Assembly: GCF_002020135.1 (NCBI RefSeq)
Contig: NZ_MPZS01000001.1
Span: 1,922,001-1,986,000, forward strand
Direction of reading: 5' to 3'
Length of the DNA: 64,000 nucleotides
DNA from: Thioclava marina
Lineage (GTDB): Bacteria > Pseudomonadota > Alphaproteobacteria > Rhodobacterales > Rhodobacteraceae
Shown here: positions 52,133 through 64,000 of the stretch, piece by piece
How positions within the stretch are numbered: the first letter of the stretch is position 1
Layout: each line of letters begins with the position of its first letter
Notes under the pieces: model-generated
Databases searched by the model: none
The model's input: only the letters and a program-made list of their open reading frames with translations
Told to the model about the DNA's origin: nothing
Made by a program: the position numbers and the translations under genes

Positions 52133-52145
52133 TATCAATTAATTA
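52133..52145 (+). promoter_or_regulatory. IHF-binding consensus
   Basis: TATCAA-TTAA-TTA fits WATCAA-N4-TTR at every defined position. It lies 19 bp before the -24 element at 52164, in an AT-rich tract, the usual position for IHF to bend DNA between an upstream activator and a sigma-54 promoter. Confidence 0.65.
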
Positions 52146-52163
52146 CAGATTGACGGAGAAAAC

Positions 52164-52179
52164 TGGAACGTAACTTGCA
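52164..52179 (+). promoter_or_regulatory. sigma-54 (-24/-12) promoter of the P450 cluster
   Basis: TGGAACG-TAAC-TTGCA matches TGGCACG-N4-TTGCA at all but one position, with GG and GC at the required 10-base gap. Transcription would start near 52190, 30 or so bases before the P450 ATG at 52223. A sigma-54 activator is encoded in the same gene run (58950). Confidence 0.75.
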
Positions 52180-52222
52180 TGAAGTCTCGGTGAAACGCGA
52201 GTTTGACCGGGAGTTTCTCCAA

Positions 52223-53425
52223 ATGACGCAAGACAGCCTCGTCGCCGACAATCTGCCCTATCTTGATATCTCGGATCCCGGGTTCTCGATCCGCTCTTCC
52301 GAAGTGATGAATGCACGCGAGGCGTCCTGGTGCGCGCGCACGAATTATGGCCTCGCGGTGCTGCGATATGACGATGTGCAAAAGCTTCTTCGTCATCCCA
52401 AGCTCCGTCAGGGCTCCTATCGCTGGCCGGCGCTGAACGATGTCACAGGCGAATTCGCGCGCTGGTGGGAAAGCATGCTGCTCAGCCAGGAGGGCGACAA
52501 CCATGCGCGCCTGCGGCGAATGGCGAACCCGGCTTTCTCGCCGAAGCTCATTACGACGCTCGCGCCGAAATTCACCGAGCTTGCGACGATGCTGATCGAC
52601 GAGTTCGCCCCTAAGGGCGAATGCGACTTCATCGCCGAATTCACCGAACCCTACGCGACCGGCGTGATCTGCGAGCTTCTGGGCCTGCCCTTCGAACGCT
52701 GGCGAGAACTGGCTGATATCGCTGCGGAAATGGGTCTCGCTCTCGGCGTCACCTTCAAGAAGGACCTGCCGACGATCGAGGCGGCAACGAAGCGGCTCTT
52801 CGACTATGTCGAGGAGCTGGTCGAGGCCCGCCGCGCCGCGCCGAAAGACGATTTCATCGGCATGCTGATCAAGGCCAACGAGGACAAGAGCCAGCTCTCC
52901 GATCAGGAACTGCTCGACATGATCGTTCTGGCGATCTTCGGCGGCATCGACACCACGCGCAACCAGCTCGGCCTCGCGATGGCGACCTTCATCGAGCACC
53001 CCGAGCAATGGGCGCTTCTGGCCGAACGGCCTGAGCTGGGCCGCGCCGCGGTCGAGGAGGTGATGCGCGTGCGTCCCACCGTGACCTGGGTCACCCGCGA
53101 GGCGGTCGAGGACTTCACCTATAATGACACGCCGATCGAGAAGGGCACGACGCTGCACCTCTTCTCGCAATCGGCGACCTCCGATCCGCGCGTGTTCGAC
53201 GATGCGAGCTTCGACATCACGGCCGAGCGCAAGCCGCATTTCGGTTTCGGCGGCGGGGCGCATCACTGCCTTGGCCACTTCATTGCCCGCGGCGACATGA
53301 CCGAGGCGCTCAAGCTGCTTTCGCAACGCCTGAAGAACCCGCGCTTCAACGGTGAGGTCGAGTGGCTTCCCGACAGCGGCAATACCGGCGCGATCCGGAT
53401 GCCGATCGCTTTCGACCCGGCTTGA
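52223..53425 (+). CDS. cytochrome P450
   Basis: 400 residues, soluble bacterial type. Haem cysteine Cys349 in HFGFGGGAHHCLGHFIAR, the E-x-x-R pair at Glu279/Arg282, and the I-helix oxygen-activation motif FGGIDTTRN (about 239-247). The ATG at 52223 (GGGAG upstream) lies after the predicted sigma-54 start site; the TTG at 52175 is inside the -12 element and is rejected. First gene of the amine cluster, with its own ferredoxin and reductase right after it, so a class I three-component system. The substrate is unknown; the GS-like and polyamine-transport neighbours point to an amine. Confidence 0.93.
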   Translation: MTQDSLVADNLPYLDISDPGFSIRSSEVMNAREASWCARTNYGLAVLRYDDVQKLLRHPKLRQGSYRWPALNDVTGEFARWWESMLLSQEGDNHARLRRMANPAFSPKLITTLAPKFTELATMLIDEFAPKGECDFIAEFTEPYATGVICELLGLPFERWRELADIAAEMGLALGVTFKKDLPTIEAATKRLFDYVEELVEARRAAPKDDFIGMLIKANEDKSQLSDQELLDMIVLAIFGGIDTTRNQLGLAMATFIEHPEQWALLAERPELGRAAVEEVMRVRPTVTWVTREAVEDFTYNDTPIEKGTTLHLFSQSATSDPRVFDDASFDITAERKPHFGFGGGAHHCLGHFIARGDMTEALKLLSQRLKNPRFNGEVEWLPDSGNTGAIRMPIAFDPA

Positions 53426-53468
53426 GCCACGCAAATCCAGCCGAAAAATTGCAAGAGGGACCAGTAAG

Positions 53469-53654
53469 ATGAAAGTTCACGTCAACATGGATATCTGCCT
53501 GCTGCACGGGCAATGCGTGATCGCCGCGCCGGAGATCTTCTCCTTCGACGACAGTGGCGATCTCCATTGGGTCGAGGTGATCGACGACTCTCAGGTTGCC
53601 GATGCCGAAGCCGCTTCCGATGCCTGCCCCGAGCAGGCCATCATCCTCGGCTGA
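53469..53654 (+). CDS. P450-type ferredoxin (CxxHxxC)
   Basis: 61 residues. Cluster ligands Cys10, Cys16 and Cys53 (in DACPEQAI), with His13 replacing the second cysteine of CxxCxxC. This C-x2-H-x2-C...C-P pattern is known from small [3Fe-4S] or [4Fe-4S] ferredoxins that serve bacterial P450s. Start ATG 53469 follows AAGAGGGA. It lies 43 bp after the P450 gene and 6 bp before the reductase gene, so it should carry electrons between these two. Confidence 0.92.
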   Translation: MKVHVNMDICLLHGQCVIAAPEIFSFDDSGDLHWVEVIDDSQVADAEAASDACPEQAIILG

Positions 53655-53660
53655 TCGGTC

Positions 53661-54878
53661 ATGGCAGGGCCCCGGATCACCGTCGTCGGCGCCTCGCTCG
53701 CGGGGCTGCGCACGGCCGAAGCGCTGAAGGCGGCGCTTCCGCAGGCGCAGCTCACGCTGATCGGCGACGAGCCGCATGCGCCCTACAACCGACCGCCCCT
53801 GTCGAAGGACGTGATGGAGAGCTTCGCAGGGGGCGATGCGGATGAAACCGAGGCTTTCGGCAAGCTCCTGCTGCGTTCGAAGCTGACACCGGAAGACGTG
53901 TCGATACGTCTCGGCGTGGCCGCGACGGGTTTCGAGAATGCCGGTGTGCGTCTTGCCGATGGTTCTCTCGTCCGCTCGGACTGGGTGATCGCGGCGACCG
54001 GCATCCGGCCGCGCCGGTTGCCACTTCCCGGAAACGAAGACATCCGCCATGTCCTGCGGCGCTTCGACGACGCCCGCGCGCTCGCGCCGATGCTGCAACC
54101 GGGCAAGCGTCTGGCGGTGATCGGGGCGGGGTTCATCGGCTGCGAGATCGCCGCGACCGCGCGCAAGCTGGGCCTGCATGTCACGATCGTCGAGCCCGGG
54201 CCGCAGCCCATGATGCGCGCGCTCGGCCCGCGTGTCGCGGCTGCGATGGCCGCCTTGCACCGGCGCCATGGGGTGACGCTGCTTACCGGGCGCATGGTCG
54301 AAGCGTTCCAGCCGGGCCGTGTGATCCTCGACAACGGGAAGGAAATCGAGGCCGATGTGATCGTCGAGGCGCTCGGCTCGCTGCCCAACACGGAATGGCT
54401 TGCCGGGAGCGGCGCGGATCTCAGCGATGGCGTTCTGGTCGATGACACGATGCGGGCGATTGGCGCGCCGAACCTGCTCGCGGTCGGTGACATCGCACGC
54501 TTTGCCAATCCGCTGTTCGACGATGTGCCGCGCCGGGTCGAGCATTGGTGCATCCCCGGCTTCACCGCCAAACGCGCCGCCCAGACCATCGCCGCGCTTG
54601 AGGCGGGCGATACGCCCGAACCCGGATTTTCGCCGCTGCCGAGCTTCTGGTCGGACCAATACGGCATGCGCGTTCAGGCCTTCGGCGCCCCGGCGCTGGC
54701 CGAGACGCAAACCGTTGTCGAAGGCGATCTGAGCCAGATCGGCGAGGCCCCCGTGATCGTCGAATACGCCCGCGACGGCGCGCTGACCGGCGTGATCGGC
54801 CTTGGCGCTCCGCCCGCACTGATTGCCAAACACCGCGCCCGCCTGATGGCCGCGCTCACCCCGAAAGAAACCGCATGA
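53661..54878 (+). CDS. NAD(P)H:ferredoxin reductase (FAD-dependent)
   Basis: 405 residues of the pyridine nucleotide-disulfide family as found with P450 and Rieske systems. FAD fold: ITVVGASLAGLRTAEAL; APYNRPPLSKDVM is the typical loop; AATGIRPRRLPLPG; NAD fold: LAVIGAGFIGCEIAATARKLG; second FAD motif LLAVGDIARFANP. A C-terminal reductase domain with HWCIPGFTAKRAAQTIA and FWSDQYGMRVQ completes it. It overlaps the first GS-like gene by 4 bp. Supplies electrons to the ferredoxin for the P450. Confidence 0.93.
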   Translation: MAGPRITVVGASLAGLRTAEALKAALPQAQLTLIGDEPHAPYNRPPLSKDVMESFAGGDADETEAFGKLLLRSKLTPEDVSIRLGVAATGFENAGVRLADGSLVRSDWVIAATGIRPRRLPLPGNEDIRHVLRRFDDARALAPMLQPGKRLAVIGAGFIGCEIAATARKLGLHVTIVEPGPQPMMRALGPRVAAAMAALHRRHGVTLLTGRMVEAFQPGRVILDNGKEIEADVIVEALGSLPNTEWLAGSGADLSDGVLVDDTMRAIGAPNLLAVGDIARFANPLFDDVPRRVEHWCIPGFTAKRAAQTIAALEAGDTPEPGFSPLPSFWSDQYGMRVQAFGAPALAETQTVVEGDLSQIGEAPVIVEYARDGALTGVIGLGAPPALIAKHRARLMAALTPKETA

Positions 54879-56203
54879 GCCCCCAGATGAACGACCCCCT
54901 CGAAGCCGCCCTCGCCAAGTTCGACGCCGAGATCGTGCATGTCGGCCAGTTCGATTACGCCTCGGTCCTGCGCGAACGCCGGTTGCGCAAGGCGCAGTTC
55001 CTCGACTGGGCCGGGGATGCGCGTTTCGCCAATGTGCTGGCCTATTGGGACAGCGGCGACAATCTCTTCGGCGGCAGTTCCTATTTCACCGAGACGGTCG
55101 AGATCGACCCTACCTCGATGCGCGCGAACCCCTCCGAGCCCTATGCGGTCACGGTCATCGCTGAGCTGTCGGGCGAGGCGAAGGAGCTGATGCCGCGCCA
55201 GGTGCTGCGCCGCCAGTTGGAGCGCGCCGAGGCGATGGGGTTCAAGGTCGATGCCGCGTTCGAATTCGAGCTGATCGTGCTTGAGGAAGACGCGACGACC
55301 GCGCGCGAGAAAGACTTCGCGGGGCTTGCGAAATTCGCCCCCGACAACAAATGCTGGTCGGGCGCCACCGCGAATACCCATGCCGAATTCATCGCCGGCA
55401 TGGAGGCCGAAATCCTTGGTCATGACGTCTCGCTCTATGCGCTGAGCGTCGAGCTGGGGCCGGGCTGTCTCGAAGCCACGACTGCCGCGACCGAGGGGCT
55501 GCGCGCTGCCGACGACGCGAGCTTCCTGCGCTTGGCCGCGCGCTCCTACGCCCGCAAGCAGGGCAAAACGGTGAGCTTCATGCCCTATATGGGCGCGGAC
55601 TATCCCGGTATCGGCGGCCATTGTTCGATGAGCTTGCGCGATGCGAAAACCGGCGCGAACGTCTTCGCTTCGCCCGATGGCAAGACCAGTGATCTGGCGA
55701 AGAAATTCATTGCCGGGATGATGTCGGTGGTGCCCGAGGCCTTCGCCATGTGCACCTCGAGCGTGAATGCCTATCGCCGCCTTGCGCCGGGAAGCTGGGC
55801 TCCGAAATCGCTCACCTGGGCGGAATATCCCTTCACCGTCGCGGTGCGTTCGGTGCCGCATTCCGGCGCGCGCGCGCGGCTCGAATTCCGGGTGCCGCCC
55901 GCCGATTGCAATCCTTACCTGACGATGGCGCTGATGCTGGGCGCGGGGCTCGACGGGATCGAGCGCGACCTGCCCGCACCCGAACCGAGCGCCGCCGCGC
56001 ATCCCGATTTCGTCCCCGAAGGCGCAAGCCGCTTCCCGCGCGATCTCGCCGAGGCCGCCGAGCGACTTGCCGCGAGCGACGATGCCGCGCGGATCTTTGG
56101 AGCCGCTTTCACCGAGAACTTCGCGGCCGCCTGCCGCGCCGAATACACCAGCCTCGCCAAGGCAGTCAGCGCCGAAGAACGCGCCCGCTACCTCGAAGGC
56201 TGA
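54875..56203 (+). CDS. glutamine-synthetase-family enzyme 1 (gamma-glutamylamide synthetase-like)
   Basis: 442 residues of the GS fold, the length of GlnA-like gamma-glutamylmethylamide and gamma-glutamylpolyamine synthetases. Catalytic residues: Glu pair in FEFELIV and VELGPGC, GGHCSMSL (His for ATP/glutamate), and the arginine-rich RLEFRVPPADCNPYL near the end. The adenylylation loop of true GlnA is not seen. It should ligate glutamate to an amine with ATP, which in known pathways protects an amine before oxidation. ATG overlaps the reductase stop by 4 bp, and the second GS-like gene follows after 29 bp. Confidence 0.85.
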   Translation: MSPQMNDPLEAALAKFDAEIVHVGQFDYASVLRERRLRKAQFLDWAGDARFANVLAYWDSGDNLFGGSSYFTETVEIDPTSMRANPSEPYAVTVIAELSGEAKELMPRQVLRRQLERAEAMGFKVDAAFEFELIVLEEDATTAREKDFAGLAKFAPDNKCWSGATANTHAEFIAGMEAEILGHDVSLYALSVELGPGCLEATTAATEGLRAADDASFLRLAARSYARKQGKTVSFMPYMGADYPGIGGHCSMSLRDAKTGANVFASPDGKTSDLAKKFIAGMMSVVPEAFAMCTSSVNAYRRLAPGSWAPKSLTWAEYPFTVAVRSVPHSGARARLEFRVPPADCNPYLTMALMLGAGLDGIERDLPAPEPSAAAHPDFVPEGASRFPRDLAEAAERLAASDDAARIFGAAFTENFAAACRAEYTSLAKAVSAEERARYLEG

Positions 56204-56232
56204 GACACAAGAAAACCAATAGGGAGCCAAGA

Positions 56233-57711
56233 ATGACTACCGATACCGATTATCACCGCGAAGTCGATGCACCCGGCCGGGCCGAACTGGTCGAACGGGT
56301 GCGCAAGAAGATCGACGCGCTCGGGGTCGATTACATCTACTATCAATACATCTCGATCACCGGCCGGGTGATGGGCAAGGCCGCTCCGGCACGTCACTGG
56401 GAGACGCAGGCGCGCAAGGGTGTTCAGACCTGGATGGGCGGCGTCACCAACGTGCTGCCCGACTTCAAGGGCAACCTCATCGGCTTTGACTCCAACGCGA
56501 TGGAATGCATCGCGCTGCCCGACCCCGACACGTTCGTCCAGCTCCCCTGGGACAAGCGCGTCGCGCGTGTCTTCTGCACGCTGTTCTACAGCCTCGAGGA
56601 TCCGAATTTCCCCGGCCAGTATTACGAATACGACACCCGCGGGAACCTCAAGCGTTTCGACCGCGAGTTCCGCGAGGCCCATAACGGTTTGCATCTGCGC
56701 GTGGGCCTCGAGCCCGAGATGCTCTGGCTCAAGCCCGAGGCCGGCGAGGTGCGCCCCTATTCCGGCGTGACCGAGCCGCTCGCCTATCACATCGGCCAGT
56801 TCGAGAGCGCCCGCGATATCTGGATGCAGGTCTCCGACTACGCCCGCGCGATGGGGCTCGACATGATCCAGGGCGATTGCGAGGACGCGCCCGGCCAGAT
56901 CGAACTCAACTACCAGTTCGACGACGCGCTGCCGACCTGCGACCGGATGACGACCTATCGCCAGATCTGCGCCGAGGTCGCGCGCCAGCGTGGGCTGATC
57001 GCTTGTTTCATGGCGAAACCCTTCATGGGTTACGCGGCCAATGGCTGTCACCACAACTGTTCGATCTGGACCGGCGGCGAACGCGAGGTGCAGGACATCG
57101 TGCCGGGCGAATTGCCGGGCATGGAAGAGAACTGGATGTATTCCAAGGGCGGCGTGAACGAGTTCGAGAACACCGAAGGCGGCTGGCTGCCGACGGAGCT
57201 CGGGCATCATGTTCTGGGTGGCTCGCTCAAGCATATCAACGCGCTGACCTGTATCGGTGCGTCGACCGTGAACTCCTATCGCCGGTTCAACGACTACGGT
57301 CTCTGGGCGCCGATCGGGGCGAATTGGGGCCTGCAGAACCGCTCCTGCACGGTGCGCATCTCCTCGCCCGACCGGTTCGAGTTCCGCGCGGTGGACAGCA
57401 TGGTCAACCCGCATCTGTTCTGCGGCGCGCTGCTGAAGGCGATGGATGATGGCATCCGCAACAAAATCGACCCGGGCGCGCCCGAGTCGCGCAACGTGAC
57501 CGAGGTCTGGCAGTCGGGTGGGGAGGTCAAACTCATTCCGCTCAATCTTCGGGACGCGCTCGACGCGCTCAAGGAAGACGAGGTCATTCGCTCGGCACTT
57601 CCGGGTCGGCTCTACGAAGTCTTCGACGAATACAAACAGGATGAGTGGACACGCTTCCTGCGTGAGGTCACCAATTGGGATGTGGAGCAATACCTGCATT
57701 GCGTGCCGTAA
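56233..57711 (+). CDS. glutamine-synthetase-family enzyme 2
   Basis: 492 residues, a different subgroup from its neighbour. GS landmarks: VDYIYYQYISITGRVMGKAA at the N-terminal beta-grasp, GLEPEMLWL, DCEDAPGQIELNYQFDDAL, GCHHNCSIWTGG and FEFRAVDSMVNPHLFCGALL. The acidic and histidine positions are kept. The C-terminus is about 50 residues longer than in enzyme 1. ATG 56233 has AGGGAG upstream; the frame opens earlier only as a shadow of enzyme 1. Two GS-like genes in tandem suggest either two successive ligations, two amines, or a heteromeric enzyme. Confidence 0.85.
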   Translation: MTTDTDYHREVDAPGRAELVERVRKKIDALGVDYIYYQYISITGRVMGKAAPARHWETQARKGVQTWMGGVTNVLPDFKGNLIGFDSNAMECIALPDPDTFVQLPWDKRVARVFCTLFYSLEDPNFPGQYYEYDTRGNLKRFDREFREAHNGLHLRVGLEPEMLWLKPEAGEVRPYSGVTEPLAYHIGQFESARDIWMQVSDYARAMGLDMIQGDCEDAPGQIELNYQFDDALPTCDRMTTYRQICAEVARQRGLIACFMAKPFMGYAANGCHHNCSIWTGGEREVQDIVPGELPGMEENWMYSKGGVNEFENTEGGWLPTELGHHVLGGSLKHINALTCIGASTVNSYRRFNDYGLWAPIGANWGLQNRSCTVRISSPDRFEFRAVDSMVNPHLFCGALLKAMDDGIRNKIDPGAPESRNVTEVWQSGGEVKLIPLNLRDALDALKEDEVIRSALPGRLYEVFDEYKQDEWTRFLREVTNWDVEQYLHCVP

Positions 57712-57741
57712 CCCGTTGACCCCCGCATAGGAGCCCAGAGC

Positions 57742-58935
57742 ATGACAGATCCAACCAGACCAGAGACCGAGATGATCGACGTTCTCAGCCGGGACGGACG
57801 GATCGTGTCTGCATGCGCTGCGCAAGAAACCGTGCTCGGCTTCTCGCCGGGCGCGGTCGAGGACGCGCCATGGTCGGCGGTCTATCCGCTCGACTCCCGC
57901 AAACGGCTTGAAGAGGTCTTCACCGAGACCACCGCCGGGCCGCATGTCATCGCGCTTGAGATGCGCACGCAGCAGGGCGCGCGGCTCGGCGTCACCGCGA
58001 TCGTGACGCGCTTTACCGACCCCGAGCACGGGCTTTGCCTGCGCTCGGTGAAATGGCCCGCGGGCGGGGCGCTCGGAGAGGTTGCGAACCTCGCCGAGGA
58101 AAAGGAAATCCTCGAGTCGATCCTCGCAGCCTCCGACGATGCGGGATGGTGCATGGAATGGGCGGAGCCCGTGGACCTCTCGGCCCCCGAACAGGAGATC
58201 ATCCGTCAGGTCTTCGAGAACGGCCCGCATTGGCGGTTCTGCAACGATGCGATGGCGCGGCTCTATCGCACGCCCGAAGGCAAGGACTTCAACGCGCTCC
58301 CCGTGCACGAGACTTTCCCGCGCTCGCCCGAGAACGAGGATTTCGTGCGCCGCCTGATCCGCGCGAGCTTCGATGTCAATGCCTCGCCCTCGCGCGATCT
58401 GCGTTATGACGGCGTCTATATCGAGGTCGAGAACGACGTGCGCGGGCACATCCGGGGCAACTTCCTGCACCGCATGTGGGGCACGGTGCGCGATGTCTCG
58501 AAACATGCCCGCCGCGCGGCGGTTCTGCGCGACGAGATCGACACTCTGGAGGCGATCCTCGATGCGCTGCCCGACGCGGTTCTGGTCGTCGATCGCGACG
58601 CCCGCATCCTGCGCATCAATACCAGCGCCGAGGAATTGCTCGACCTCAATCCCGACCTTCTTCCCGCGAGAAGTCTCGATGACCTGATCGAGCTTCCCGT
58701 GCCGCTCGCGGAAATCTTCGCCGATGCGGGCCATCATCTGCCCGGTCATCCGAGCGGGATTTACCCGACCCTTCTGCGCAATCCCGATCGCCCGATCCGC
58801 GCCGAACTCTCTGCGCGTTGCGTGGCCTTGCGGGAGACGGAGTGCCTTGTTCTGAGCCTGCGCGCGCGGCTCGGGCCGATCTCGCAGGACGGCGAACTCG
58901 CCAAGGTGACCCCGTTCAGGGCGCGGGGACGGTGA
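57742..58935 (+). CDS. stand-alone multi-PAS sensor protein
   Basis: 397 residues, soluble. Three PAS-like blocks: about 10-110 ([27 protein letters not shown]), about 120-250 ([17 protein letters not shown], with a conserved ERLYRT-like region) and about 260-385 ([32 protein letters not shown]). No kinase, HTH or cyclase domain follows. Its end overlaps or abuts the sigma-54 activator gene (TGATG at 58933), so I infer that it senses the inducer or redox state and passes the signal to that activator by contact. Confidence 0.75.
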
Positions 58936-58949
58936 TGGAGGGGAAGCCG

Positions 58950-60338
58950 ATGAAGCAAAGCTCCGCGACACCGCCCCGCCCGCTCGATCAGGCGCTCGAC
59001 GCGCTGGCCGACGGGCTCATCGTTCTCAACCCCGATCATTCGATTGCCTTCGCCAACCGTCAGGCCGCCGCATTATGCGGTTTCAGCGCCGCAGAGATGA
59101 CCGGGATCGAGTTCGCCAAATTCAACGACCTTTCCGCGCTGAACTGGACACTGCTGGGAGAGATGCTTGAAGCAGGCCGAACCGGTAATCTCATCTTGCG
59201 CGGCGAAGCGACCGGAGCGGTCTTCATCACCTTGCGGCGAATTTCGACGACCGGCGCCAGTGAGGGCCACGTCATCACGCTGCGCGATCTGGCGGTGTTC
59301 GACCATGCCCGCAGACAGGCGACCGGCGCGCGCTCCGCCCCGACATTCACCAGCGCGACCGAACGCCGGATGCGACCCGATTTCGCCCGGCAGAGGGCGA
59401 TCTCGCCCTGGCTCGACCGGATGATCTCGCGCGGGGAACGCGCGCTCTTGCAGGGCGCGCGGGTCATCATCACCGGGGAATCCGGCGTCGGGAAAACGGA
59501 AATCGCACGTCATCTGCACAATTTCGTCGCCAATGGCGTGGACCCGTTCATCGCGGTCAACTGCGCCGCGATCCCCGAAAGCCTCTTTGAATCCGAGCTG
59601 TTCGGCTATGAGAAGGGCGCGTTCACCGGGGCGTCGACCGAGGGCAAGAAGGGCCTGATCGAGGCAGCCGAGGGCGGTACGCTCTTTCTCGACGAGATCG
59701 GCGAGATCCCCTTGCCCCTGCAGGCCAAATTGCTGTCCTTCCTCGAAGAGGGCACGATCCTGCGGATCGGAGGAACCCGTCCGCGCCGCGTCAACGTGCG
59801 GGTGATCTCGGCCACCAATCGCGACCTTCTGGAAATGTCCGAGGATCGCCGTTTCCGCACCGATCTCTATTACCGGCTCGCGGTCGTGAACATGCCGATG
59901 AAGCCGCTGCGCGAAGTGCCGGAACTGCTCGATCACCTGATCGACCGCTTTCTCACCGCGATCAACCAGCGCCGTTCGGTCCCGCTTCAGCTCTCCGACG
60001 ATCTGCGCGCACGGCTGCGGGCCTATCACTACCCGGGCAATATCCGCGAGCTGTGGAACCTGATGCAGCAGATCTCGGTGCTGGGCGATGACGAGGAAGA
60101 ACTGCCGCGGCGTCTCATGGCGCTCGACCCTGCGCAGAGCGCGCGCCCCACCGGCAAACCCGCCACCTCGGAGGCCGTCGCCTTTTCCGAAGGCACCAGC
60201 CTGCGCGAGGCGGTGAGCGAATACGAATTGCGGATCATCGAAGACGCGATCCGTGTGCATGGCAGCAAACGCAAGGCTGCTGCCGCCCTTGGTGTCGATA
60301 TCGGCACCATTTCCCGAAAGACCCGAAAAGAGCCGTAA
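58950..60338 (+). CDS. sigma-54-dependent activator with N-terminal PAS
   Basis: 462 residues from ATG 58950 (GGAGGGGA before it); an ATG at 58935 overlapping the PAS gene stop is the alternative. PAS domain about 12-115 ([28 protein letters not shown]), AAA+ domain with Walker [10 protein letters not shown] (176-184), the sigma-54-contact loop GAFTGAS (223-229) and Walker B GGTLFLDE (242-249), then a Fis-type HTH at the end ([21 protein letters not shown]). It should drive the -24/-12 promoter at 52164. No phospho-receiver domain, so control is probably by ligand binding or by the neighbouring PAS protein. Confidence 0.92.
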
Positions 60339-60371
60339 ACGGCCGAAAAAAACCAACAGTGGAGAGAAGAC

Positions 60372-61418
60372 ATGACTATCAAGAAGACGATGCTCGGCAC
60401 GCTTGGCCTGCTCGCCCTCACCGCATCGCCGGTGCTGGCGGAAGGCACGATCAACGTGCTGACCTGGGAAGGCTATGCCGACCCCTCCTTCATCTCGAAA
60501 TTCGAGGAGACCTCGGGCTGCCAGGTGAACGCCACCTATGTCGGCTCGAATGACGACTTCGCCCCGAAGCTGATGGCTGGCGGCGGCGTCTATGACCTGA
60601 TCACCCCGTCGATCGACACGACCAAGCTGATGATCGACCTCGATTTCGTCGAGCCTCTCGATACGGCAAAGATCGAAGGCTGGAACGATATCTATCCGAA
60701 GTTCCTTGCCCTCGACGGGATCCAGAAGGACGGCGAATATTACGGGATGCCCTATAGCTGGGGTGCGATCGCCTTCATGTATCGCGACGATGCCTTCGAC
60801 ACGCCGCCGACCTCGATCGCGGATCTGTGGCGCGAGGATCTCAAGGGCAAGATCTCGCTCTGGGACGACAAGAGCGCGATCTATGTCGCGGCGCGCAAGA
60901 ACGGTGACATGAACATCTATTCGCTCTCCGACGAGCAGATCGCGGCCGCGCAGAAGACGCTCGTCGAACAAAAGCCGCTGATCCGCAAATACTGGGCGAC
61001 GGCGGGCGAACTGGTCGATCTCTACAAGGCGGGAGAGGTCGTGATCTCGAACACCTGGGCAGGCTATCAATCGAGCCTGCTGGCCGATGAAGGCGTGAAG
61101 GTCACCGAGTTCATCCCGAAAGAGGGGGCCGAAGGCTGGCTCGACAGCTGGATGGTGGTGAAGGGCACGCCGAACAAGGAATGCGCCTACAAGTTCCTCA
61201 ACATGCAGCTCTCCGAACTCGGTCAGTGCGGCGTGGCCAATGTCAACGGCTACTCCGCGGCGAATGCCTCGGCGGCCAAAAGTTGCATGACGCCCGAGCA
61301 GTTCGCGGCGCTCCATCAGGATGACCCCGCCTATCTCGACAGCCTGCTGATCTGGACGCCGCTGGGCGATCGGTTCGAGGCCTATACCAATGCCTGGAAC
61401 GCCGTGAAGGCCCAATAA
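60372..61418 (+). CDS. spermidine/putrescine-type ABC transporter binding protein
   Basis: 348 residues with signal peptide ending ASPVLAEG. Mature protein of the PotD/PotF fold: INVLTWEGYADPSFISKFEETSGC, YVGSNDDFAPKLMAGGGVYDLITPS, YGMPYSWGAIAFMYRDD, ISLWDDKSAIYVAA, EVVISNTWAGYQSSLLADEG and GWLDSWMVVKGTP. Periplasmic. Recognises a polyamine or another organic amine; the PotD aspartates that bind amines cannot be mapped surely by eye. 33 bp follow the activator gene; the ATPase gene comes 107 bp later. Confidence 0.88.
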   Translation: MTIKKTMLGTLGLLALTASPVLAEGTINVLTWEGYADPSFISKFEETSGCQVNATYVGSNDDFAPKLMAGGGVYDLITPSIDTTKLMIDLDFVEPLDTAKIEGWNDIYPKFLALDGIQKDGEYYGMPYSWGAIAFMYRDDAFDTPPTSIADLWREDLKGKISLWDDKSAIYVAARKNGDMNIYSLSDEQIAAAQKTLVEQKPLIRKYWATAGELVDLYKAGEVVISNTWAGYQSSLLADEGVKVTEFIPKEGAEGWLDSWMVVKGTPNKECAYKFLNMQLSELGQCGVANVNGYSAANASAAKSCMTPEQFAALHQDDPAYLDSLLIWTPLGDRFEAYTNAWNAVKAQ

Positions 61419-61525
61419 CACCGCGAAAGCTCGGCGACCCCGGAAGTGGGGTCGCCTCAGGGATCAGGGAAACAGGCGACCGGGGAGGGGGCGCCCGTTT
61501 CCGGACTAGCAGGGAACAAGGCGAC

Positions 61526-62623
61526 ATGGCCGCAATCATCGAGTTGGAGAATATCTCCAAACATTACAGTCCAACCATCATCGGCGTGGATAACGTGTCT
61601 CTCACCGTGGAGGACGGCGAATTCGTCACGCTTCTGGGGCCCTCGGGCTGTGGCAAATCCACCCTCCTGCGCATGATCGGCGGGTTCGAGGAACCGACCG
61701 GGGGAGCGATCCGGCTCGCCGACAAGGACGTGACCTTCGACCCGCCCTACAAGCGCGAGGTCAACATGGTCTTTCAGGATTACGCGCTCTTTCCGCATAT
61801 GACGATCGGCGAGAACGTGGCTTACGGTCTCAAGACCTTCAAGCTCGACAAGGATACGGTGCGCACGCGCGTGAAGGATGCGCTGATGCTGGTGGGTCTC
61901 TATGACAAGCTCAACCAGCGCCCGCAGCAGCTCTCGGGCGGGCAGCGCCAGCGGATCGCGCTTGCCCGCGCCATCGTGCGCCGCCCGAAGGTCCTGTTGC
62001 TCGACGAACCGCTCTCGGCCCTCGATGCGAAATTGCGCGAGCAGATGCAGATCGAGCTCAAGCACCTGCACGAAAAGGTCGGCATCACCTTCATCATGGT
62101 GACCCATGACCAGACCGAAGCGCTGGTTATGTCGGACCGCGTGGTCGTGATGGAGAAGGGCAGGATCGCCCAGGAAGGCCGCCCGCAGGATCTCTACGAT
62201 CATCCGGCGAGCCCCTATGTCGCGAATTTCATCGGAACGACGAGCTTTCTTCCCGGCAAGGTCAGCGCGCTCTCGGGCGGGGTCGCGACGATCGCGGCGG
62301 GCGGTACGCAGATCACCGCCCATCCCGATGTCACGCTGAGCGAAGGCGCGACCGTCACCGTTGGCGTGCGCCCCGAGAAGGTGAAACTCCTCGCAGAGGG
62401 TGAGACCGCCGATAACGTTTTTGAGGGCACCATCGCCGAGGTTATCTATTACGGGCTGGGCCTGCGGATTTCGGTGACGCTCGCCGATGGCAGCAAGATC
62501 GACGCCGACACCTTGCTGCCCGATAAGCTCTCGCATTCGACCTTGCCGCAATCCGGCGCGCCGGTTCGCCTGGGCGTGGCGGCCCATAACGTCTTCGTCT
62601 TCGAAGGGACGGTGACGCCATGA
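61526..62623 (+). CDS. ABC transporter ATPase (PotA-like)
   Basis: 365 residues. Walker A LLGPSGCGKSTLLRMIGG, Q-loop VFQDYALFPHMT, signature LSGGQRQRIALARAI, Walker B LLLDEPLSALDAKLREQMQ and H-loop MVTHDQTEAL. The C-terminal regulatory OB-type domain (about 235-365) follows, with GVRPEKVKLL. Energises the amine importer together with the two permeases. Overlaps the first permease gene by 4 bp. Confidence 0.93.
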   Translation: MAAIIELENISKHYSPTIIGVDNVSLTVEDGEFVTLLGPSGCGKSTLLRMIGGFEEPTGGAIRLADKDVTFDPPYKREVNMVFQDYALFPHMTIGENVAYGLKTFKLDKDTVRTRVKDALMLVGLYDKLNQRPQQLSGGQRQRIALARAIVRRPKVLLLDEPLSALDAKLREQMQIELKHLHEKVGITFIMVTHDQTEALVMSDRVVVMEKGRIAQEGRPQDLYDHPASPYVANFIGTTSFLPGKVSALSGGVATIAAGGTQITAHPDVTLSEGATVTVGVRPEKVKLLAEGETADNVFEGTIAEVIYYGLGLRISVTLADGSKIDADTLLPDKLSHSTLPQSGAPVRLGVAAHNVFVFEGTVTP

Positions 62624-63486
62624 GCTTCCTGCGCCGCAACCTTCCAGGCATGCTGGTGATGGGCATCCCGCTCATGTGGATCGCGCTCTTCATGCTGCTG
62701 CCCTACGGGATCATCGTCACCTATTCCTTCTGGCTGAAGAAATACCCGACCTTCATCCCGGCCTTCCAGTTCGGGAACTACATCACGATCTTCACCGACC
62801 CCCAATATGTGCGGGTCTTCCTGCGCACGCTGAAGATCTCGGTGCTGGTCTCGGCCGCCTCCTTCCTGCTGGCCTATCCCTTCGCCTATTACCTCGTCTT
62901 CCGCTGCCGTTCGGCGGCGCTGCGGACCTGGCTTTACATGGCGGTGATTGCGCCCTTGTGGGTGAGCTACCTGCTGCGGGCCTATATCTGGAAGACGATC
63001 CTCGGCACCGAGGGCGTCCTGAACTCCTTCCTGATGTCGCTCGGGATCATCAATGAGCCGTCGAGCCTGTTTCTCTACAACCAGTTCGCGATGGTGGTGA
63101 CGCTCACCTATATCTTCATCCCTTTCATGGTGATGCCGATCTACACCGCGCTCGAGAAGATCCCGACCAACCTGACGGAAGCCTCGGCCGATCTCGGGAT
63201 GGGGCCGTGGCGCAGTTTCTGGACGGTCACGCTGCCCTTGTCGCTGCCCGGTGTCGCGGCGGGGTTCACGCTGACGTTCTGTCTCTCCTTCGGGGACTTC
63301 ATCGCGCCCTTCCTCGTGGGTGGGCCTGACGGCAACCTCATCGCCAACGTGATCGCCACGCAGTTCGGCGCGGCACTGAACTGGCCGCTGGGCTCGGCGC
63401 TGGCGATCGTGATGCTCGTCGTCGTTCTCACCATCGTCTCCCTCTCCGACCGGATGGAGCGCAAAGGCATGACGGGAGGCGTCTGA
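62620..63486 (+). CDS. ABC transporter permease (PotB-like)
   Basis: 288 residues with six membrane segments. YGIIVTYSFWLKKYPTFIPAF near the N-terminus, the EAA loop EASADLGMGPWRSFWTVTLPLSLPGV and a closing VVVLTIVSLSDRMERKG are typical of polyamine-type permease 1. ATG overlaps the ATPase stop (ATGA). It forms the membrane channel with the next gene product. Confidence 0.92.
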   Translation: MSFLRRNLPGMLVMGIPLMWIALFMLLPYGIIVTYSFWLKKYPTFIPAFQFGNYITIFTDPQYVRVFLRTLKISVLVSAASFLLAYPFAYYLVFRCRSAALRTWLYMAVIAPLWVSYLLRAYIWKTILGTEGVLNSFLMSLGIINEPSSLFLYNQFAMVVTLTYIFIPFMVMPIYTALEKIPTNLTEASADLGMGPWRSFWTVTLPLSLPGVAAGFTLTFCLSFGDFIAPFLVGGPDGNLIANVIATQFGAALNWPLGSALAIVMLVVVLTIVSLSDRMERKGMTGGV

Positions 63487-63488
63487 CC

Positions 63489-64000
63489 ATGGCACAGAAA
63501 ACACCCGGCCTCCTGTCGCGTTTTGGTGCCGACACGGCCTTCATGAGTTTCGTCGCAATCCTGATGGCGTTTCTCTACATCCCGATCTGGGTCCTGATCG
63601 CGTTTTCCTTCAACGACTCGCGCTCGCTTACCTGGCCGCTCTCGGGGTTCACGCTCGACTGGTATCGCAAGCTGTGGAGCAATTCCGACCTGATCGCGGC
63701 GATCGGCAACAGCTTCTATGTCGCGACGCTGGCGACGGTCGTGACCCTCGCGGTGGGCGTACCGGCGGCGATGGTGCTGCACAAGTTCGACTTCCCCGGC
63801 AAATCCGTGTTCCGCAGGCTGATCCTGCTGCCGATCACGCTGCCGGGGATCGTCACCGGTATCTCGATGCTCAACATGTTCAAGCTGATGGGCTTTCCGC
63901 TGAGCCTCGAGACGGTGATCCTGGGCCATGCGACCGCGCTTCTGGGTGTGGTGGTCACGCAGGTCTATGCGCGGCTGCAACGCCTGCCGCCGTCGCTCGA
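63489..64000 (+). CDS. ABC transporter permease (PotC-like), truncated by window edge
   Basis: 170 codons are visible, starting at ATG 63489, 2 bp after the previous stop. Membrane segments start with FMSFVAILMAFLYIPIWVLIAFSFN, then the polyamine-permease hallmark GFTLDWYRKLWSNSDL, NSFYVATLATVVTLAVGVPAAMVLHKF and ILLPITLPGIVTGISML. The EAA loop and C-terminus lie past the window. Completes the importer. Confidence 0.92.
   Translation, partial: MAQKTPGLLSRFGADTAFMSFVAILMAFLYIPIWVLIAFSFNDSRSLTWPLSGFTLDWYRKLWSNSDLIAAIGNSFYVATLATVVTLAVGVPAAMVLHKFDFPGKSVFRRLILLPITLPGIVTGISMLNMFKLMGFPLSLETVILGHATALLGVVVTQVYARLQRLPPSL

Follow-up and report, generated by a model that had tools for sequence, protein, structure and literature searches.

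The pip/mor loci of mycobacteria, the Ipu pathway of Paenarthrobacter aurescens TC1 (pTC1/pTC2) and the Puu pathway are among the closest described systems to the operon reported here. This operon is from Thioclava marina and begins in a window of 64,000 nucleotides (the whole stretch of DNA analyzed, positions 1,922,001 to 1,986,000 of the forward strand of contig NZ_MPZS01000001.1). PipA and MorA, the CYP151 enzymes of the pip/mor loci, are described as N-heterocycle hydroxylases in the available text of PMC9477822. Similar to the operon, the pip/mor loci possess genes for a P450, a one-cluster ferredoxin and a glutamine synthetase (GS)-family protein in a row, with a reductase gene in some of them. 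Different from the operon, they have a GntR regulator, an APC permease and one GS, whereas the operon adds an IpuC-like second ligase, a Pot-type importer, a PAS protein, an enhancer-binding protein (EBP), its own RpoN, a PuuC-like aldehyde dehydrogenase (ALDH) and a class-I glutamine amidotransferase (GATase). The Ipu pathway shares with the operon a GS-like ligase, a class I P450 chain, a GATase and an ALDH, but its P450s belong to another family, its gene order is different, the second ligase of the operon (GS2) is missing and no sigma-54 gene is found among the annotated neighbors. The PuuC-like ALDH, the GS-family ligase, the class-I GATase and the Pot-type importer are shared with the Puu pathway. 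In the operon, however, a P450 replaces the flavin oxidase, there are two ligases, the best match of the GATase is a model other than PuuD and all proteins fall outside the PuuA, PuuB, PuuC and PuuD equivalogs. We conclude, with a probability of about 0.6, that the operon encodes the catabolism of a small amine, whose most likely class is that of cyclic secondary amines such as pyrrolidine, piperidine and morpholine. Its chemistry, of a kind already described, comes in a new combination, and the operon itself is real, conserved and inserted. The initial annotation of this DNA had regarded a P450 next to such ligases as new, a claim that was abandoned because the published CYP151/pip layout, P450-ferredoxin-GS (PMC10516948), and the Ipu route (PMC6776027) already pair them in the available parts of these papers. 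Our literature search turned up no paper on this operon, which is not proof of absence, as subscription papers were mostly outside its scope.

All eleven co-directional genes of the initial annotation exist on one strand with overlaps or short gaps, but the operon is larger than first stated. Past position 64000 it continues unbroken on the same contig and strand with the remainder of the second permease gene and three more genes, for the ALDH, the GATase and an RpoN paralog, and its confinement to the window was thus rejected. The operon comprises 14 genes at 52223–67834 (15.6 kb), and the distances between neighboring genes range from -4 (an overlap) to 107 bp. All coordinates follow the window numbering, all features are on the plus strand, and coordinates in L006 plus 62000 give the window numbering. 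An alignment search of named genomes with the P450 identified 441 relatives, and the counts out of 80 loci below refer to the best 80 of these 441. The order P450-ferredoxin-ferredoxin reductase-GS1-GS2-PAS-EBP-binding protein-ATP-binding cassette (ABC) transporter was identical in 21 of the 80 named loci, and two further loci (L067 and L071) matched it up to the contig end. Thus, the layout is not due to chance, and the synteny extends far beyond one strain. The relatives included members of Sinirhodobacter, Salinihabitans, Antarcticimicrobium, Salipiger, Gemmobacter, Defluviimonas, Tabrizicola, Pacificispira and Caenispirillum, and the same parts occurred in other layouts in Oricola, Ciceribacter/Rhizobium, Roseovarius/Ruegeria and Paracoccus sp. 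TOH. The last strain was also considered as a lead to the substrate and was dropped, as it is described, where text on it is available, as a polyhydroxybutyrate producer. A GS2-type match was present in 72 of the 80 P450 loci, and GS2 was clustered with the P450 in 66 of 86 loci. The distribution is patchy: GS1 was found at an identity of at least 95% in 3 of 16 Thioclava genomes and the P450 at an identity of at least 78% in 3 of 295 genomes of the family, sampled at about one per genus.

The first gene (52223–53425) encodes a CYP151-like cytochrome P450 of 400 amino acid residues, assigned by Pfam (p450), its tree position and its motifs, FGGGAHHCLG for the heme and GIDTT in the I-helix. A longer frame starting with TTG at 52175 was rejected in favor of the ATG at 52223, owing to its overlap with the -12 element of the sigma-54 promoter. 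P450s of one family share about 40% identity or more. The identities between the operon P450 and P450s found in 16 of 148 mycobacterial genomes searched ranged from 54 to 61%, and those with the P450s of three mycobacterial clusters with the layout GntR-dCache-P450-ferredoxin-GS (L195, L197, and L203) were 58–59%; L198 and L133 have the mycobacterial-type layout plus a reductase gene. The kinship with mycobacterial P450 loci for piperidine and morpholine that the initial annotation suggested was supported, and the P450 did not cluster elsewhere in an indirect test. The identities with the ipu P450s were only 28–29% over about 280 residues, and these P450s were outside the CYP151-like tree, which is a quick tree without bootstrap and with a long-branch warning; membership of the operon P450 in the Ipu family was therefore rejected. 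The closest solved structure, 3p3l/3p3o (266 bits), which we take to be AurH, was uninformative on the substrate. The second gene (53469–53654) encodes a single-cluster ferredoxin of 61 residues (Fer4_15) with the pattern CxxHxxC...CP, in which there are three Cys and a His replaces the fourth ligand, presumably of the 3Fe-4S type. It is followed by the gene for an FAD/NAD(P)H ferredoxin reductase (53661–54878; Pyr_redox_2 and Reductase_C), so that by Pfam the class I P450 chain is complete, with separate genes for P450, ferredoxin and FAD reductase. In the available text of PMC9477822, PipA/BioI of Gulosibacter are 52–53% identical to PipA/MorA and a GS gene is numbered next to these P450s, and two CYP151C from Alphaproteobacteria are tabulated in PMC8197338.

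The two ligases, GS1 (54875–56203) and GS2 (56233–57711; 492 residues after its start was corrected to 56233), both contain Gln-synt_C and belonged to different lineages in a quick tree: GS1 fell with IpuC, and GS2 joined the ligases encoded next to actinobacterial P450s. GS1 was 31–32% identical to both IpuC of strain TC1 over about 450 residues and grouped with IpuC with a Shimodaira-Hasegawa-like approximate likelihood ratio test (SH-aLRT) support of 99. GS2 was in one lineage with actinobacterial GS-family proteins (SH-aLRT of 98) and is not IpuC-like, with identities to IpuC of 24–25%. In the numbering of Salmonella GS, E129, E131, E212, E220, H269, R321, R344, R355, and E357, which are the metal, glutamate and phosphate residues, were kept in 26/26 GS1 and 66/66 GS2. 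Moreover, E327 was replaced by W in all 26 GS1 and by W or F in all 66 GS2, and D50 and S53 of the ammonia-type GS were lost in both. GS1 and GS2 therefore both look like amine ligases: most catalytic residues are kept, and with the ammonia site gone they should act on amines. The amine catabolism by GS-like ligases that the initial annotation had proposed is supported. The GoaS grouping covers such amine ligases along with Ipu, aniline and Puu ones (PMC11335346), and the GS gene near CYP151 P450s has been taken as one for ammonium assimilation in the available text of PMC9477822. As an amine ligase, the GS beside CYP151 P450s would be seen in a new light, and the true substrate of the P450 becomes a directly testable question. 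The same genome also contains a second amine-type locus (L054:3784-10362) with genes for an Fe-alcohol dehydrogenase, a Pot-like importer and a GS-like protein beside a LuxR-type regulator; this GS-like protein is about 40% identical to GS1.

The importer is encoded by four genes: those for a PotD/PotF-like periplasmic amine-binding protein (60372–61418; domain matches and PotD alignment), a PotA-like ABC ATPase (61526–62623; TIGR01187 potA at 370.4 bits, above the cut-off of 355.6), a PotB/PotH-like permease (62620–63486) and a PotC/PotI-like permease (63489–64295, with the window ending at 64000), both permeases by profile match. Aligned to PotD, the binding protein keeps the Trp/Asp positions that we take to be ligand-binding. 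The ALDH (64315–65811; motif NQGEVC) had PuuC as its best NCBIfam match, at 586.5 bits under a cut-off of 850. The class-I GATase (65865–66587; motifs GVCFGH and HPE) best matched the general amidotransferase model PRK05665 instead of PuuD, at 123 bits under a cut-off of 309. The two ligases scored 143 and 191 bits against the GGputSyn model, under its cut-off of 650, and no PuuB was found among the 14 operon genes.

From the genes, their order and conservation, the promoter, the insertion and the active-site residues, all read from the sequence, we infer the following reactions and regulatory wiring. The Pot-type importer, by homology, would take up the amine. GS2, with the IpuC-like GS1, would join it to the gamma-carboxyl of glutamate, as the active-site residues suggest. 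With electrons from the ferredoxin and its reductase, the CYP151-like P450 would then, as expected for its family, hydroxylate the carbon next to the nitrogen and open the ring to an aldehyde, which the PuuC-like ALDH would oxidize. Finally, the class-I GATase would free glutamate and an omega-amino acid such as gamma-aminobutyrate (GABA) or 5-aminovalerate. Transcription would start from one sigma-54 promoter and be driven by the operon's own activator, its triple-PAS partner and its own RpoN, forming a positive feedback loop. Genes for Peptidase_C26, of the gamma-Glu-GABA hydrolase type, were found in actinobacterial loci and in Paracoccus sp. TOH. Glutamylation before the P450 step is favored over glutamylation after it. 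Purified P450mor reportedly gave no binding spectra with free ring amines, which would fit a glutamylated substrate, yet the same system is said to oxidize morpholine.

Several observations weigh against this reading. The reconstitution in the available text of PMC9477822 oxidized free morpholine, which speaks against glutamylation first. The assignment to CYP151 is indirect and runs through mycobacterial P450s of pip-like clusters. No GS match was found in 8 of the 80 loci (L103, L105, L109, L113, L122, L132, L136, and L138), of which L103 and L105 span more than 20 kb, and among 15 P450 loci from the bacterial family of T. marina (L037-L051) a GS-type match adjoins the P450 in 5, with one more 13 kb off. 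At R339, GS1 has F or Y whereas GS2 has R or K, and at R359, K is found in 26 of the 66 GS2. The loci L070, L073, L074, and L076 on the RpoN side have a permease gene and then the GATase gene, without an ALDH gene. Moreover, no gene of the operon fixes the carbon skeleton of the substrate, and the IpuC-like GS1 would also fit an alkylamine.

The last point leads to an Ipu-like route for a branched or short alkylamine, in which GS1 makes the gamma-glutamylamide, the P450 hydroxylates it and the amidotransferase frees an amino alcohol. Besides the grouping of GS1 with IpuC, it is favored by the parts list shared with the ipu clusters of TC1 (GATase, P450, ferredoxin, ferredoxin reductase and IpuC) and by the activity of the Ipu P450 on gamma-glutamyl-isopropylamide in the available text of PMC6776027. 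We regard this route as unlikely, given the distance of the ipu P450s from the operon P450, the lack in the 14-gene operon of the short-chain dehydrogenase/reductase gene that both TC1 ipu clusters contain, and the fact that the ligase most often paired with this P450, GS2, is not IpuC-like. A Puu-like route for a polyamine or an N-alkylated amine, with the P450 removing only the N-alkyl group, would account for the Pot-type importer, the PuuC-like ALDH and the PotD-like residues of the binding protein. Neither a flavin amine oxidase nor an aminotransferase is encoded among the 14 genes, however, and the nearest characterized relatives of the P450 are ring-amine enzymes, which makes this route quite improbable and leaves the catabolism of a cyclic secondary amine as the preferred explanation.

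Comparisons of the flanks showed that the operon is inserted, and a core position of it in Thioclava was rejected. The left flanking gene (a methyltransferase, named by eye) was present in 16 of 16 Thioclava genomes and the right one (nitrilase-like, named by eye) in 12 of 16. They were 0.65–0.85 kb apart in 10 of 10 other Thioclava genomes, a count that excludes the T. marina genome itself and one genome with both genes on different contigs, and 2 of these ten (G009 and G014) have the operon elsewhere. In the T. marina genome, the operon lies between the same two genes, and their distance is 16.6 kb. Similarity to three empty sites ends at about 51905 and restarts at about 67945–67959, and the DNA common with the other Thioclava operons, which is the promoter through rpoN, runs from about 52112 (G009) or 52163 (G014) to L006:5825. 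A related cluster on a Ruegeria plasmid is flanked by two transposase genes. The operon is thus probably a horizontally moved, self-contained unit, and this mobility is part of the best explanation for small-amine catabolism.

The sigma-54 control of the initial annotation was supported by the presence of both a -24/-12 promoter and an activator with a GAFTGA motif, the features of a sigma-54 regulon. The promoter, TGGAAC-N5-TTGCA (52164–52179), starts 59 bp upstream of the P450 ATG and was the only site scoring 11/12 within 51001–69000, where the next best scored 9. The relatives carrying EBP/PAS had comparable sites at about 50–95 bp before the aligned start of the P450. In a comparison of 86 loci, from which L037 and L038 were left out as duplicates of L068 and L070, a site scoring at least 9 was upstream of the P450 in 31 of 35 loci with EBP/PAS matches and in 3 of 51 without, an enrichment that does not test independent events and is uncorrected for kinship, so that its Fisher value does not stand for a probability. 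Four loci with EBP/PAS matches (L072, L073, L074, and L101) had no good promoter and count on the other side. The activator (58935–60338) is a PAS-AAA+-HTH EBP with GAFTGA at 228 and Walker A at 181. The gene before it (57742–58935) encodes a probable sensor partner of the activator, whose AlphaFold2 model (mean predicted local distance difference test, 85.7; predicted template modeling score, 0.47) shows three PAS domains but lacks an output domain. The best PDB match of the model was the PpsR PAS array of Rhodobacter sphaeroides; as the TM-scores were low, the fold search supports only the domain make-up. Similar to NifL-NifA, and by analogy only, an output-less PAS protein is encoded just before a sigma-54 activator (9qq6 was among the fold matches), but the model of the operon protein contains nothing besides its three PAS domains.

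The last gene of the operon (66584–67834) encodes one of two RpoN in the T. marina genome and retains all three sigma-54 domains. R. sphaeroides (RpoN1/RpoN2) and other multi-rpoN bacteria likewise have sigma-54 paralogs with promoter preferences, the site of which is at -11 in R. sphaeroides and -12 in B. japonicum in the available text of PMC3162934. Different from these cases, the paralog here ends an operon, its RpoN box is changed and the differences in the promoter concern both the -24 element and the last base of the -12 element. A search of 34 relatives for RpoN gave a match in 32 and returned 30 loci; in 16 of the 30 the RpoN gene adjoins GATase, ALDH or permease genes of the operon, with no ALDH gene at that place in 4 of the 16 (L070, L073, L074, and L076), and Oricola has it between permease and P450. 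The RpoN box, the part of sigma-54 reading the -24 element (PMC4496707), is SRRVVAKLR in the operon copy vs. ARRTVAKYR, which was found in 13 compared rows. In a clade of 15, the operon copy included (support 97/93; the tree omits L057, in which only 132 residues of rpoN are inside the locus), the box starts with S in 14 and keeps RR in all 15. The operon promoter has TGGA in place of TGGC. Directly after the -24 GG, 14 of the 15 promoters of this clade carry A and 1 carries T, vs. C in 19 of 19 others; at the last base, 14 of the 15 carry A, vs. T in 13 of the 19 others. The pattern TGGAAYNNNNCTTGCA was found once in the T. marina genome. Over nine genomes it gave 13 sites, of which 9 are the P450 promoter, 2 are elsewhere in one genome and the remaining 2 (Sinirhodobacter) lie 5.5 kb farther downstream, where the coordinates place them immediately ahead of the PAS gene; the reversed pattern gave 8. 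As the pattern was derived from these promoters, this search tests their exclusiveness and not their existence.

The regulation is the new part of this operon. We hypothesize that its RpoN and promoter form a private sigma-54 circuit dedicated to the operon, which would surprise a specialist. The box and promoter changes fall on one clade, so that only one or two evolutionary events underlie their covariation, which is no test of independent events, the possible second one being Gemmobacter, where the box is PRRRIAKYR/TRRRIAKYR and the promoter TGGCCC...CCTGCA. It is quite possible, at somewhat less than even odds, that the main RpoN reads the promoter instead, with the recoded box being a product of drift in a redundant gene and the difference at -24 one of shared ancestry. 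Consistent with drift, RpoN was the least conserved gene in two operons of other genera (49–54%, vs. 90–91% for GS2), the rpoN copy of L216 carries an in-frame stop, and Ciceribacter and Allorhizobium have an odd-box RpoN some distance away, yet a promoter with the usual C. The intact domains, the RR kept throughout the clade, the position of rpoN beside operon genes in 17 of the 30 returned loci and the uniqueness of the promoter site in the T. marina genome argue for a dedicated RpoN. If such a private circuit is true, the operon could move between hosts without depending on the host RpoN. A sigma-54 with an altered box and a matching promoter is also a candidate for a natural orthogonal sigma-54 that could serve in promoter engineering and help to see how catabolic islands carry their own transcription. 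Tentatively, and less likely than not, these elements may be joined in a single reading, that of a portable one-promoter regulon with an orthogonal sigma-54, a recoded box and a recoded -24 element, whose P450 acts on a gamma-glutamylated ring amine. CYP151 and Ipu might then share one chemistry, whose order, equally tentative, would be to glutamylate, to oxidize next to the nitrogen and to cut the glutamate off.

Among the relatives, the Defluviimonas locus L216, whose rpoN stop is a TGA, also has a P450 promoter off consensus (TGGTCA), possibly a decay of the circuit. In L221 and L222 (Ciceribacter and Allorhizobium), the odd boxes are SRRTVTNRR/SRRTIGNRR, the RpoN genes are about 17–20 kb from the P450, and the promoter has the canonical C.

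The redox partners of CYP151-like P450s also varied. In L080, L082, L084-L087, and L057:11974-14886, such a P450 and a diflavin reductase share a single open frame of about 965–1065 codons as called, and in the P450 tree these 7 form one clade; the fusion was assigned by Pfam on L084 and by clustering on the others, and PLSDB annotates only the reductase half for L057. In the Pseudomonas loci L088, L091, L093-L096, L098, and L100, the P450 adjoins a flavodoxin and/or an FAD reductase that replace the ferredoxin chain (by Pfam on L094 only). These clade-specific swaps between ferredoxin chain, fused diflavin reductase and flavodoxin are a good series for studying redox-partner evolution. Finally, L058 (Gordonia sp. 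KTR9 pGKT2) contains a P450 relative with 59% identity and a GS-type match directly before an FAD oxidoreductase and a P450 of 552 residues, which we take to be xplA, the P450 that degrades hexahydro-1,3,5-trinitro-1,3,5-triazine (RDX).

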